A stretch of DNA of 64,000 nt from Enorma burkinafasonensis. GTDB lineage: Bacteria > Actinomycetota > Coriobacteriia > Coriobacteriales > Coriobacteriaceae. A program made the translations under genes and the position numbers. This document shows positions 54,079 through 57,679 of this stretch, in pieces (position 1 is the first letter of the stretch; each line of letters begins with the position of its first letter). The DNA is taken from NCBI RefSeq assembly GCF_902150035.1, contig NZ_LR597504.1, positions 1 through 64,000 of the forward strand, in the 5' to 3' direction. A model generated the notes under the pieces. The model worked only from the letters and a program-made list of their open reading frames with translations, was not told where the DNA came from and did no database searches.

Positions 54079-54316
54079 TGCGCTTCCTTTCTTATTATCT
54101 ATAGGTATATATGTATTCAATCATAATAATAAGGACGTTGAGTCTGTGGATTACAGGTAAACACGCAGGTTGTTTACGGTGTCTTTTTCGACACCTATCT
54201 GTTGGGAACCGGTAAGGTTTTGGGGAGAACTTCGCTGCCCCGGGCGTTATCCCTCGGTTGCACCTCCTTTTCCACGACCCTTCCTCATCATCTGCACGGG
54301 TTATCAACACCGGGCG
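54079..54316. other. dnaA-dnaN gap: candidate origin segment with AT-rich tract and DnaA-box-like sites
   Basis: A very AT-rich stretch lies at 54085-54132. DnaA-box-like nonamers are TGTGGATTA (54145-54153) and TTATCAACA (54301-54309), each 8 of 9 to consensus, and TTTTCCACG near 54268 is weaker. A perfect dyad GTAAACA/TGTTTAC (54157-54163, 54171-54177) and a hairpin GGTGTC/GACACC (54178-54183, 54190-54195) also occur; the hairpin may terminate dnaA. In many actinobacteria the origin lies in this interval. Confidence 0.55.
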
Positions 54317-55945
54317 CTACGAGCTCAAGCGGATCTTGTTGCGCAGTTGCTGCAAATCCTCGCACAGCGCGCGGTCCTCCTTGAGCTTCTTCTCGATAAC
54401 CTTGATGGAATTGAGGACCGTCGAGTGGTCGCGGCCGCCGAACTCGGCCCCGACGGCGACTGCGGTCATCTCGCACATGTCCATCGCGAGGTAGACCGCG
54501 ACGTGGCGCGCGTGCGCGATGTTCGCCGTCCTCCTCGGCCCGATGAGGTCCTCGTGGCTCACGTGGAAGAACTTCTCGACGGCCGCCTGCACGGTGTCGA
54601 TGTGGATCTTCTTGTGCGCCGTGTCGAAGTACTCGTTGGCGATGCGGTCGATATCCTCGCCCGTGAGCTCGGCTCCCGCCTGCTCCCGCTCGAAGGAGAC
54701 CCCGGCGCACCGCTCGCAGAAGCTCTCGAGCTCGCGGATGTTGGTGCCCGAGACGTCCGCCATGTGCCTGAGCTGCGCGTCGGTGAGCTGCCCTCCGCCG
54801 ACGTTCAGCGAGTTCAGCAGCGACCCCGCCTCGACGCCGGCGAGCGCGTCCGAGCCGTTCAGGATGGTGTTCTCGTAGTAGCGCTTCAAGATCATGTACT
54901 TCATCTCGAAGCCGGGCTCCGAGACGAGGCAAAGCATCCCGGCGTTGAACCTGCTGGTCAGGCGCTCGTCCATTCCCAGGTTCTTGGGCGCCCGGTCGGA
55001 TGCGATGGCGACCTTCTTGTTGTTCCTGATGAACTCGTCCATCAGCGTGAAGAAGTTCTCGATGCTCTGGGTCTTGCCGATGATGTTCTGGATGTCGTCG
55101 ATGATGAGCACGTCGGCGTCGTGGTAGTCGCGCAGGATGACCCCGGCCTTGCTCTTCTGCACCGCGAGCTCGCTGATGTAGTCCTCGACGTAGGTCTGGG
55201 AGTTCGCGTATTTCACCCGGAGATGGGGGCTGTGCTCGTTCAGGTAGTTGGAGATCGCGAGGAGCAGGTGCGTCTTGCCGAGGCCCGATTTGCCGTAGAT
55301 GAACAGCGACGTGCAGCTGCCCGGCTCGTCGGCGAGCGCGGCGAAGCGCACGGCGGACATGTAGGCGTGCTTGTTCTCGTCGCCGTAGACGAAGTTCTCG
55401 AACGTGAACTTAGAGTGGATGCCCACCGCCGGCGCCGGCTCGGCTGCGGTGGGCACGGCGCGCTTGTCGGGCTCCGCCTCATCCCGCTTCATGATCCCCG
55501 TCAACTTCTGGAAATCATCGAGGGTGATGGTGTTGCGCACCTTGACCTTCGACTGCTCGGCCCCATCGTCGTCATGGCGGCTCGGTATGATCACGGCGGG
55601 GATGGGGGCGTGCACGACCGGCTCGCCTGCATCCTCGCTCTTCGCCGGGGTTTCACGGGAAACATGTTCGGGCGCGTCCGCCGACCGTTCCGTTAGGCCC
55701 TGGTCGACCTTCACGATGAGGGAGAGCGGGCAGAAGGCGATGTCCTCGAGGTAGCGCTCGATCACCTCGCGCTGCTTCATGAGGTACGAATAGGCGAAGC
55801 GCGAGGGTGCCTGGATGGTTAGCGCCTCATCGGAGAGCTCCACGGGGATAGACTGCGCCAGCATGTTGATAAGCCGGGCGTCCCGCCCGTCGCGCTGGCA
55901 GAACGAGATGGTGTCATCGAGGATGATCTTGGCTTCCGTGTCCAT
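54317..55945 (-). CDS. dnaA: Chromosomal replication initiator DnaA
   Basis: A 542-residue AAA+ initiator. Domain I (residues 1 to about 80) is divergent; a linker to about residue 175 is rich in Ala, Glu and Pro; domain III has Walker A YGKSGLGKTH and Walker B VLIIDDIQ; and domain IV has the DNA-binding signature GAEFGGRDHSTV. The linker includes the residues VSRET (95-99), which are encoded by a parS-like palindrome listed separately. The ATG at 55945 has AGAAGGA before it. It lies 31 bases downstream of the GHKL/winged-helix gene. Confidence 0.96.
   Translation of the reverse strand: MDTEAKIILDDTISFCQRDGRDARLINMLAQSIPVELSDEALTIQAPSRFAYSYLMKQREVIERYLEDIAFCPLSLIVKVDQGLTERSADAPEHVSRETPAKSEDAGEPVVHAPIPAVIIPSRHDDDGAEQSKVKVRNTITLDDFQKLTGIMKRDEAEPDKRAVPTAAEPAPAVGIHSKFTFENFVYGDENKHAYMSAVRFAALADEPGSCTSLFIYGKSGLGKTHLLLAISNYLNEHSPHLRVKYANSQTYVEDYISELAVQKSKAGVILRDYHDADVLIIDDIQNIIGKTQSIENFFTLMDEFIRNNKKVAIASDRAPKNLGMDERLTSRFNAGMLCLVSEPGFEMKYMILKRYYENTILNGSDALAGVEAGSLLNSLNVGGGQLTDAQLRHMADVSGTNIRELESFCERCAGVSFEREQAGAELTGEDIDRIANEYFDTAHKKIHIDTVQAAVEKFFHVSHEDLIGPRRTANIAHARHVAVYLAMDMCEMTAVAVGAEFGGRDHSTVLNSIKVIEKKLKEDRALCEDLQQLRNKIRLSS
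55649..55664. other. parS-like site inside dnaA
   Basis: GGTTTCACGGGAAACA matches 14 of 16 bases of the parS consensus TGTTTCACGTGAAACA; the differences are the first base and one central base. It lies in the non-conserved DnaA linker, about 5 kb from the three strong parS sites. Whether ParB binds it is unknown. Confidence 0.5.
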
Positions 55946-55976: not shown

Positions 55977-57191
55977 TTACGCGTTGTCCTTGAGCCAGGA
56001 CTCCCCGAGGGAGGTCAGCGTGTACTTGCGCCCGTGCTTCACCACGAAGCCTTGCTCACCAAGTTTAGCAAGCACGCGCGACCAGGTAGGAACCGACTGC
56101 CCGAACGCCTGGGAGAGCTCACCAGGCCCCCCTGACCCATGAACCCCCAGGTAATCGAGGGCATTCATATCCCTCTCGTCGATATAGGGCTGCTCTCGGC
56201 GCATCGGCGCGCCCTGCATGGGGGTCGCGATATGCGCTGGTTGGGATGGGTATTGTGGATATGTGGAAAACTCATGGTTCTGCTGTGGAAAACTTTGCCC
56301 ATATCCCGGTTGAAAGGGCTGTGCGGGGGGATAGCCCGGCATGCCGTATCCGCTGGGGTTCTGCGCGAAAGCGCCCGCCGCACCCTGTTGGGGGTAGGGG
56401 TACTCCCCCATGTACGGGTAGGGATAGGCCTGGCCGGGCTGCTGGGGGTACGGCGCGGCCATCCCGTAGGAGGGGATCCCGGGTCGGTATCCCGCACCAG
56501 CCGGGGCGGCGGCTCCCGTGGCGGCGGCGCCTGGGCTTGCTGTCTGCGAGGTGAACGATGTGCCCCGCACCGCCGCGCCGCGGGCGCTGTTCGCCTCGAT
56601 CTCCTGCACCCTGGCGGCATCGACACTCACCGTGACGACCGTTCCCGAGCCGAGGTTGTCCTCGATCGATACGGCCCCGCCGGCGTTCTCGAGGTACTGC
56701 TGCACCATCGGCAGACCGGCGCCCGTGCCCCTGATGTAGCGCTTCATGGAGCGGTTCGCGGAGGTCACGCCGAATTCGAAGGCGCGCTCCTTGTCGTCGA
56801 TGCCCGGCCCTTGGTCGGCGAAGCGCACCGTGTTCCCCCCGTCGAGGATCGAGACGATCGGCTCGGTGAAGTTCGCGTGTATGAAGTTCTCCACGAGCTC
56901 CCTGATCACCATGAGGGAGATCGAGCCGCCGAGCTCCTTCATGCTCCTATAGACCGTGTTGGTGATCTCCTCGAGGTAGGAACGGGGGTCATTCGGCTGC
57001 ACGACGATCACGCGCGGCGTCGAGAGCATGTCGTCGTAGATGGCGATCCTCGTGGCGAAGACGGTGCCGTTCCCAGCGCCATCCTGCCCCACCGCACCGT
57101 CTTCGGCGGAGGGGTCGGGGGTACCGGTAATGTGCCTGTTGTCGGGGGCGGGGTCGCCGGAATCCACGAAGGGGTAGAAATCGTCTGCCAT
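55977..57191 (-). CDS. GHKL ATPase with a Tyr/Pro/Gly-rich linker and C-terminal winged helix
   Basis: A 404-residue protein that I cannot match to a named family. Residues about 75-195 form a histidine-kinase-like ATPase: N box ELVENFIHAN (Glu98 to Asn106), G1 DQGPG at 126-130, G2 RGTGAGL near 154-160. No phosphoacceptor histidine region, sensor or membrane segment is present, so it is closer to anti-sigma ATPases such as SpoIIAB than to sensors. Residues about 215-330 are low-complexity (Pro, Tyr, Gly, Gln). Residues about 340-404 look like a winged helix (SQAFGQSVPTWSRVLAKLGEQGFVVKHGRKYTLTSLG). The ATG at 57191 has no clear ribosome site. It lies between an origin-like region and dnaA. Confidence 0.8.
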   Translation of the reverse strand: MADDFYPFVDSGDPAPDNRHITGTPDPSAEDGAVGQDGAGNGTVFATRIAIYDDMLSTPRVIVVQPNDPRSYLEEITNTVYRSMKELGGSISLMVIRELVENFIHANFTEPIVSILDGGNTVRFADQGPGIDDKERAFEFGVTSANRSMKRYIRGTGAGLPMVQQYLENAGGAVSIEDNLGSGTVVTVSVDAARVQEIEANSARGAAVRGTSFTSQTASPGAAATGAAAPAGAGYRPGIPSYGMAAPYPQQPGQAYPYPYMGEYPYPQQGAAGAFAQNPSGYGMPGYPPAQPFQPGYGQSFPQQNHEFSTYPQYPSQPAHIATPMQGAPMRREQPYIDERDMNALDYLGVHGSGGPGELSQAFGQSVPTWSRVLAKLGEQGFVVKHGRKYTLTSLGESWLKDNA

Positions 57192-57458
57192 GGTCGTCCG
57201 TTTCACGCATGCCGAAAGCGGCGGGGTGCCGTAGTCGCCGTTTAGGAGAATAGTAGCGCACCTTGCACCTTGTGAAACTTTCCACATGTTTTCAAATCGT
57301 GTTGAAAACTGAAACAACGAGATGAAAAGTTATCCACACGAGAGAACAACCTGTGGAAAGCTAGATGAAACGGAGTGAAAGTAACGGGTCTGCTGCGCGT
57401 TCCGGAACTGTTGAATGGAAAATTGCCGCAGGAACTTATGATTCCTCGCTGCTCTTTA
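57192..57458. other. Candidate origin segment between the GHKL gene and rpmH
   Basis: The point from which both gene trains diverge. A perfect DnaA box TTATCCACA lies at 57330-57338, with CTTTCCACA at 57278-57286 and TGTGGAAAG at 57352-57360 as weaker, oppositely oriented copies. The sequence is locally rich in A (GAAAAC, GAAACAACGA, GATGAAAAG). No gene is seen. Together with the dnaA-dnaN gap it could make a bipartite origin. Confidence 0.6.
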
Positions 57459-57488
57459 TTGACATCCACGCACCTTGTTCCATACAAT
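57459..57488 (+). promoter_or_regulatory. rpmH promoter
   Basis: Consensus TTGACA (57459-57464) and TACAAT (57483-57488) are separated by 18 bases, about 56 bases before the rpmH start. A strong sigma-70-type promoter, as expected for the rpmH-rnpA operon. Confidence 0.8.
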
Positions 57489-57544
57489 CTTGAAGCTCAA
57501 GTGCCTAATGTGTATTCCTAAAACGCACCAGGAGGATAGTCATC

Positions 57545-57679
57545 ATGAAGCGTACGTATCAGCCGAACAAGCGCAAGCGTGCCAAGACCCACGGTTTCCG
57601 CGCCCGCATGGCCACCAAGGGCGGCCGCGCCGTCCTCGCTCGCCGTCGCGCCAAGGGCCGCAAGCGCCTTACCGTCTAG
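57545..57679 (+). CDS. rpmH: 50S ribosomal protein L34
   Basis: A 44-residue, highly basic protein starting [19 protein letters not shown] and ending KGRKRLTV, the full L34 sequence pattern. The ATG at 57545 follows CAGGAGGA. It lies directly upstream of rnpA, as in nearly all bacteria, and under the strong promoter at 57459-57488. Confidence 0.97.

Follow-up and report, generated by a model that had tools for sequence, protein, structure and literature searches.

A single-copy GHKL ATPase with a C-terminal winged helix, encoded between rpmH and dnaA, is a candidate replication regulator in Coriobacteriia and other Actinomycetota

The window analyzed here is a stretch of 64,000 nucleotides from a gut actinobacterium, a Collinsella-related member of the Coriobacteriaceae. 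An unnamed gene, designated X, occupies positions 55977..57191 on the minus strand and encodes a 404-residue protein from an ATG start, an assignment backed by an N-terminal FYPFV peptide that is conserved among homologues. The dnaA gene (54317..55945, minus strand) begins 31 bp downstream of X on the same strand; this spacing was given in an earlier note on this DNA, and the shared strand is added here. Across homologous loci the distance between X and dnaA is usually below 100 bp, which fits an operon, and the two genes probably form one. The order continues on the 3′ side of dnaA with dnaN, recF, a short open reading frame, and gyrB. Upstream of X, and divergent from it, are rpmH (57545..57679, plus strand), rnpA, yidC, jag, rsmG, parA, and parB. 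The rpmH gene has a promoter-like site, TTGACA-18-TACAAT, at 57459..57488 on the plus strand (11/12 matches).

The X-dnaA pair is flanked on each side by DnaA boxes or box-like sites, as the description of the surroundings as origin-like in the earlier note anticipated, and these sites place X between what appear to be the two halves of a bipartite oriC. A perfect DnaA box is defined here as TTWTCCACA. The rpmH-X gap (57192..57544; GC 0.47), which resembles oriC1, contains one such box, TTATCCACA (57330-57338), together with the DnaA-box sites CTTTCCACA (57278-57286, plus strand, and 57352-57360, minus strand) and TTTTCAACA (57300-57308, minus strand). The dnaA-dnaN gap (54079..54316), which resembles oriC2, contains box-like sites only, including GTAATCCACA (54145-54154, minus strand), and an AT-rich, trio-like stretch (54091-54133, minus strand) that is weaker than in relatives. 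Among outer members of the class and in other classes, perfect boxes occur at 3.1-3.6 per kb in the rpmH-X gap and at 4.0-6.7 per kb in the dnaA-dnaN gap; dnaA itself carries 0-0.09 per kb (0.03-0.09 where there are any). The variants TTTTCAACA and TTTTCGACA recur between rpmH and X in loci of the Coriobacteriaceae and Atopobiaceae, and this repetition suggests that the DnaA-box consensus is shifted in these two families.

In Bacillus subtilis and Clostridioides difficile, oriC is bipartite: boxes cluster between rpmH and dnaA and again between dnaA and dnaN, and the DnaA-trio/DUE is located in the latter interval (PMC7561715). In related Coriobacteriaceae and Atopobiaceae, an AT-rich stretch before dnaN is accompanied by trio-like repeats, for example TTATTACTATTATTAG, as in the C. 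difficile origin (PMC7561715). The arrangement described here differs from that of B. subtilis and C. difficile in having a conserved gene, X, between oriC1 and dnaA. In some Coriobacteriaceae it differs further, as part of the box cluster falls within the X coding sequence.

The X protein comprises a GHKL domain, a linker, and a C-terminal winged helix. The GHKL domain, delineated from the HATPase_c match and the AlphaFold model, spans residues 46-205 (56577..57056, minus strand) and includes a conserved N-terminal extension of the form RIAxYDD...PRV. Pfam assigns HATPase_c to residues 95-192 (E 2.6e-12), and pLDDT is mostly 70-97 across the domain, indicating a confident fold. The earlier note had read the N, G1, and G2 boxes of histidine-kinase-like ATPases in this region, and alignment of 89 non-redundant homologues bears this out: E98, N102, and H105 of the N box, D126, G128, and G130 of the G1 box (D126-x-G128-x-G130), and G155 and G159 of the G2 box are invariant in 89/89, and G157 is identical in 88/89. 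Comparison of the GHKL coding sequence of the window with that of a homologous locus (L091) identifies 59 codons with synonymous and 9 with non-synonymous changes, reflecting purifying selection. Codon counts for the winged helix were left out, as indels near the C-terminus put them out of register in most pairs.

The linker (about residues 213-335; 56187..56555, minus strand) is rich in Tyr, Pro, Gly, and Gln and differs strongly in length among homologues. It is predicted to be disordered, with pLDDT below 50 across most of residues 213-325. The winged helix that follows (residues 338-404; 55980..56180, minus strand) is MarR/TrmB-like by AlphaFold, Foldseek, and Pfam. Its pLDDT is 97-98 over residues 341-400, and Foldseek pairs it with MarR proteins at an rmsd of 1.2-2.2 Å. 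Pfam winged-helix matches at residues 343-398 are weak, and MarR (PF01047) exceeds its gathering cut-off in one homologue only (L026). Both the linker and the winged helix had been proposed from the DNA before these predictions. At the other end of the protein, the conserved N-terminal peptide (57147-57191, minus strand) reads FYPFV within the order and is MKxFY-like in outer lineages; it is possibly a docking motif.

The closest structural and sequence matches to the GHKL part of X are the catalytic (CA) domains of histidine kinases such as EnvZ, HK853, and CpxA, which share its ATP-binding fold and its N, G1, and G2 boxes. In contrast to these kinases, X has no DHp domain or phosphoacceptor, no sensor, and no membrane part; no response regulator partner was seen, and a winged helix is added. 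Pfam searches of X and eight homologues returned no HisKA-type or sensor-domain match, in agreement with the earlier reading, and the AlphaFold model of X contains no DHp hairpin. A histidine kinase identity, considered for X, was rejected because the DHp domain and phosphoacceptor are missing. The GHKL domain does not fall into a particular subfamily, which leaves ATP hydrolysis and binding alone equally compatible with it, and no NCBIfam model is near its cut-off for X among the matches listed (25 of 51).

The earlier note knew of no named family with this architecture. This holds for Pfam and NCBIfam, but not for the combination as such, since Schlafen-AlbA_2/HATPase_c_4 regulators likewise end in a winged helix placed after a GHKL-type domain. 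Examples are DIP2311 (PDB 3lmm), which covers the query best by TM-score when folds are searched with full-length X (TMq 0.31), and a protein encoded elsewhere in the same genome as X (L192, 1162-2595, minus strand; G000:C11). The latter has an Ala/Pro-rich stretch between its GHKL-type domain and its winged helix, comparable to the linker of X. These regulators begin with an AlbA_2 domain and contain HATPase_c_4; X lacks both, matches HATPase_c, and is fixed at the origin. X is therefore not a member of this group. The architecture thus has a partial precedent, and what is unusual is the deeply conserved genomic address of X. No paper on X was found in the literature searched.

SpoIIAB/RsbW anti-sigma kinases are small, soluble GHKL ATPases without a phosphoacceptor, and to our knowledge no member of that family has a winged helix. 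X could by analogy be a partner-switching kinase or anti-sigma-like ATPase that acts on a partner by phosphorylation or sequestration and is targeted by its winged helix. Its soluble, stand-alone GHKL domain, free of DHp and phosphoacceptor and with a conserved ATP site, would suit this role, as would the SpoIIAB-like order of its elements. Against this, HATPase_c_2 is absent at E≤1 in Pfam and absent among the NCBIfam matches listed (25 of 51), and the 50 best fold matches, mostly histidine-kinase catalytic domains, include no SpoIIAB structure. Direct assignment to the SpoIIAB type was rejected for want of a profile or top fold match, leaving this part of the earlier note without specific support. 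The genes mapped in the conserved neighbourhood of X (dnaA, dnaN, recF, gyrB, rpmH, rnpA, yidC, jag, rsmG, and parAB) fill most of the fetched stretches; these are replication and RNP genes with no sigma or STAS gene among them, the mapping having covered that gene set within ~5 kb. A partner switch is accordingly an improbable function for X.

Strong matches to X are present in 25/30 relatives. In these 25 loci and the window (L001-L026), X adjoins both dnaA and rpmH, apart from two loci (L016 and L025) that each lose one neighbour to a contig end. Across the class, X is found in 172/200 genomes and in 161/173 good genomes, with one copy in each. The order rpmH-X-dnaA is retained in 20/20 loci fetched from the class outside the order, one of which (L070) has a contig that stops before dnaA. 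X further occurs in 93 genomes of the phylum sample that belong to other classes of Actinomycetota (best E ~1e-94 to 1e-18), where the same order is found in 20/20 fetched loci as far as the contigs reach. The rpmH gene is beside X in 45/46 class loci and 19/20 non-class loci, and the remainder end at a contig edge. X is thus a one-copy gene whose place is almost always between rpmH and dnaA. The earlier note had set a lack of conservation beside dnaA in related genomes as its refutation test; synteny was instead found class-wide and beyond, and the distribution of X well past the class was not part of that note. Conservation of this breadth, with synteny, excludes a chance origin of the observation.

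Sixteen genomes appear to be without X. In 12 of these the assembly also lacks dnaA, which indicates assembly gaps, and in one more dnaA is cut at a contig edge. The other three (G082, G036, and G180; loci L204, L205, and L206) represent real losses, in which rpmH and dnaA are retained and the remaining gap holds no clear gene. X has therefore been lost at least three times, and retention of dnaA in these genomes indicates that X is not universally needed. It is also missing from many other Actinomycetota genomes of the phylum sample, including one of 9.2 Mb. Pairwise distances of X and DnaA are correlated within the order (Spearman 0.90), among other classes (0.78), and in the outer class sample (0.36), a pattern mostly consistent with vertical inheritance in place. 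A foreign or recently acquired origin of X was ruled out by this correlation and the wide synteny. Plasmid carriage was also considered and rejected: tblastn gave only short, partial matches, none covering 80% of X, and where annotated these are mostly histidine kinases.

The DNA that encodes the disordered linker contains DnaA boxes, a feature that the earlier note did not describe. In the window, two perfect boxes, both TTTTCCACA, lie on the minus strand at 56284..56292 and 56262..56270, 22 bp apart, and the second reads in frame as Phe-Ser-Thr. A third, box-like site, ATATCCACA (56254..56262, minus strand), directly follows the pair. Across 22 non-redundant Coriobacteriaceae loci, 9.5 kb of linker DNA holds 18 perfect boxes; the expectation is 0.06 by codon permutation (largest value 2 in 1000 runs) and 0.34 by synonymous recoding (largest value 3). 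These boxes are distributed over 10/22 loci, eight of which have them as a same-strand pair 22 bp apart (the window, 56254-56292, minus strand, and L004, L005, L015, L017, L095, L099, and L100). The FST tripeptides of the linkers use TTT in 11/11 cases, TCC in 10/11, and ACA in 11/11; ACA is a minority Thr codon in X genes (81/555). The exact pair is present in 12/41 Coriobacteriaceae genomes, with a single occurrence in each, as against 0 for a reversed control pattern, and every pair that can be compared with X coordinates is within X.

Of the six perfect boxes in the 2.2 Mb genome of the window, the linker holds two and the rpmH-X gap a third; another two lie upstream of dnaB, and the last is elsewhere. 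The dnaB boxes are 33 bp apart just upstream of the gene, between it and an rplI-like gene (L208, 2512-2553; G000:C19:21711-21752). Pairs ~32-34 bp apart are present in other Coriobacteriaceae genomes, recorded as positions only (for example G008:C15:50278/50311 and G006:C2:30228/30261).

Only some Coriobacteriaceae have perfect boxes in the linker; the linkers of other lineages have none. The rpmH-X gap is ~300-350 bp in Coriobacteriaceae as compared to ~720 bp in the outer class, and this shortening raises the possibility that part of the DnaA-box array may have moved into the X gene in some members of the family. An excess of boxes over either expectation, and a pair that is unique in each genome that has it, would also be anticipated if X had an unrelated function and stayed at the origin through linkage, its place being kept by origin elements within the X-dnaA DNA. 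Yet lineages other than some Coriobacteriaceae keep X in place without linker boxes, and the X protein is itself strongly conserved, making such a passenger the least probable of the explanations considered.

When aligned within each of three groups, the rpmH-X gap consists mainly of DnaA-box-like repeats and promoter or ribosome-site blocks. No conserved non-DnaA operator was found there, and a separate operator for X was rejected on this basis. These alignments bear on the main rival explanation, in which X is a local, ATP-gated autorepressor of the dnaA operon that takes no direct part in orisome assembly. Several features suit a repressor: X is the first gene of the presumed X-dnaA unit and divergent from rpmH, the gap contains promoter-like sites, and the winged helix is of the MarR/TrmB-like type. 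Nevertheless, the gap is dominated by repeats that resemble DnaA boxes, and no separate palindromic operator stands out. Autorepression confined to the dnaA operon is therefore doubtful, if less so than the partner switch or the origin-held passenger.

Taken together, the data favour X as a regulator that binds DNA in an ATP-dependent manner, acts on the dnaA operon and/or oriC, and is encoded in cis within the bipartite origin, a reading to which we give a probability of about 0.5. It is favoured by the conservation of ATP-site residues across 89 homologues, by the confident MarR-type winged helix, and by the single-copy placement of X between rpmH and dnaA in all examined loci with long enough contigs. 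Further support comes from the absence of dnaA from most assemblies without X, the purifying selection, the flanking DnaA boxes, and the correlation of X and DnaA distances. The proposal in the earlier note of a nucleotide-responsive DNA-binding protein tied to initiation thus stands as the best-supported reading. Both outcomes that the note had named as refuting it, no conservation beside dnaA and a C-terminus with no winged helix, were contradicted by the genomes and the predicted structure; binding of DNA and response to ATP would follow from the domain content.

If X functions as such a regulator, the mechanism would involve: binding of ATP by the GHKL domain, with binding (or hydrolysis) altering the dimer state; relay of this change through the flexible linker to the C-terminal winged helix; and binding of the winged helix to DNA in the rpmH-X/oriC1 region. 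In this way the nucleotide or metabolic state of the cell would, through X, modulate how the X-dnaA operon is transcribed and/or how DnaA assembles at oriC. Such a scheme presupposes co-transcription with dnaA, switching driven by ATP, and DNA binding at the origin with an effect on initiation, and ATPase activity and a partner for X would likewise be presumed. The conserved place beside dnaA could instead reflect operon inertia. A more specific and more tentative proposal is that X is a dedicated ATP-responsive initiation regulator, derived from an early Actinomycetota ancestor and missing in many lineages of the phylum, which would bind oriC via its winged helix and work with DnaA, the box array having partly moved into X in some Coriobacteriaceae.

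From one phylum to another, different regulators control chromosome initiation, and we know of few in Actinomycetota outside Actinomycetia. Here, a single-copy protein whose ATP site is conserved, and whose gene keeps its place between the apparent halves of oriC across many lineages, deep branches of the phylum among them, provides a concrete, testable case, and X is a good candidate for a replication regulator that has so far been overlooked. The DnaA boxes in the DNA of the disordered linker suggest that protein-coding DNA serves as part of the origin. X itself would be a candidate for a direct link between the energy state of the cell and the initiation of replication.
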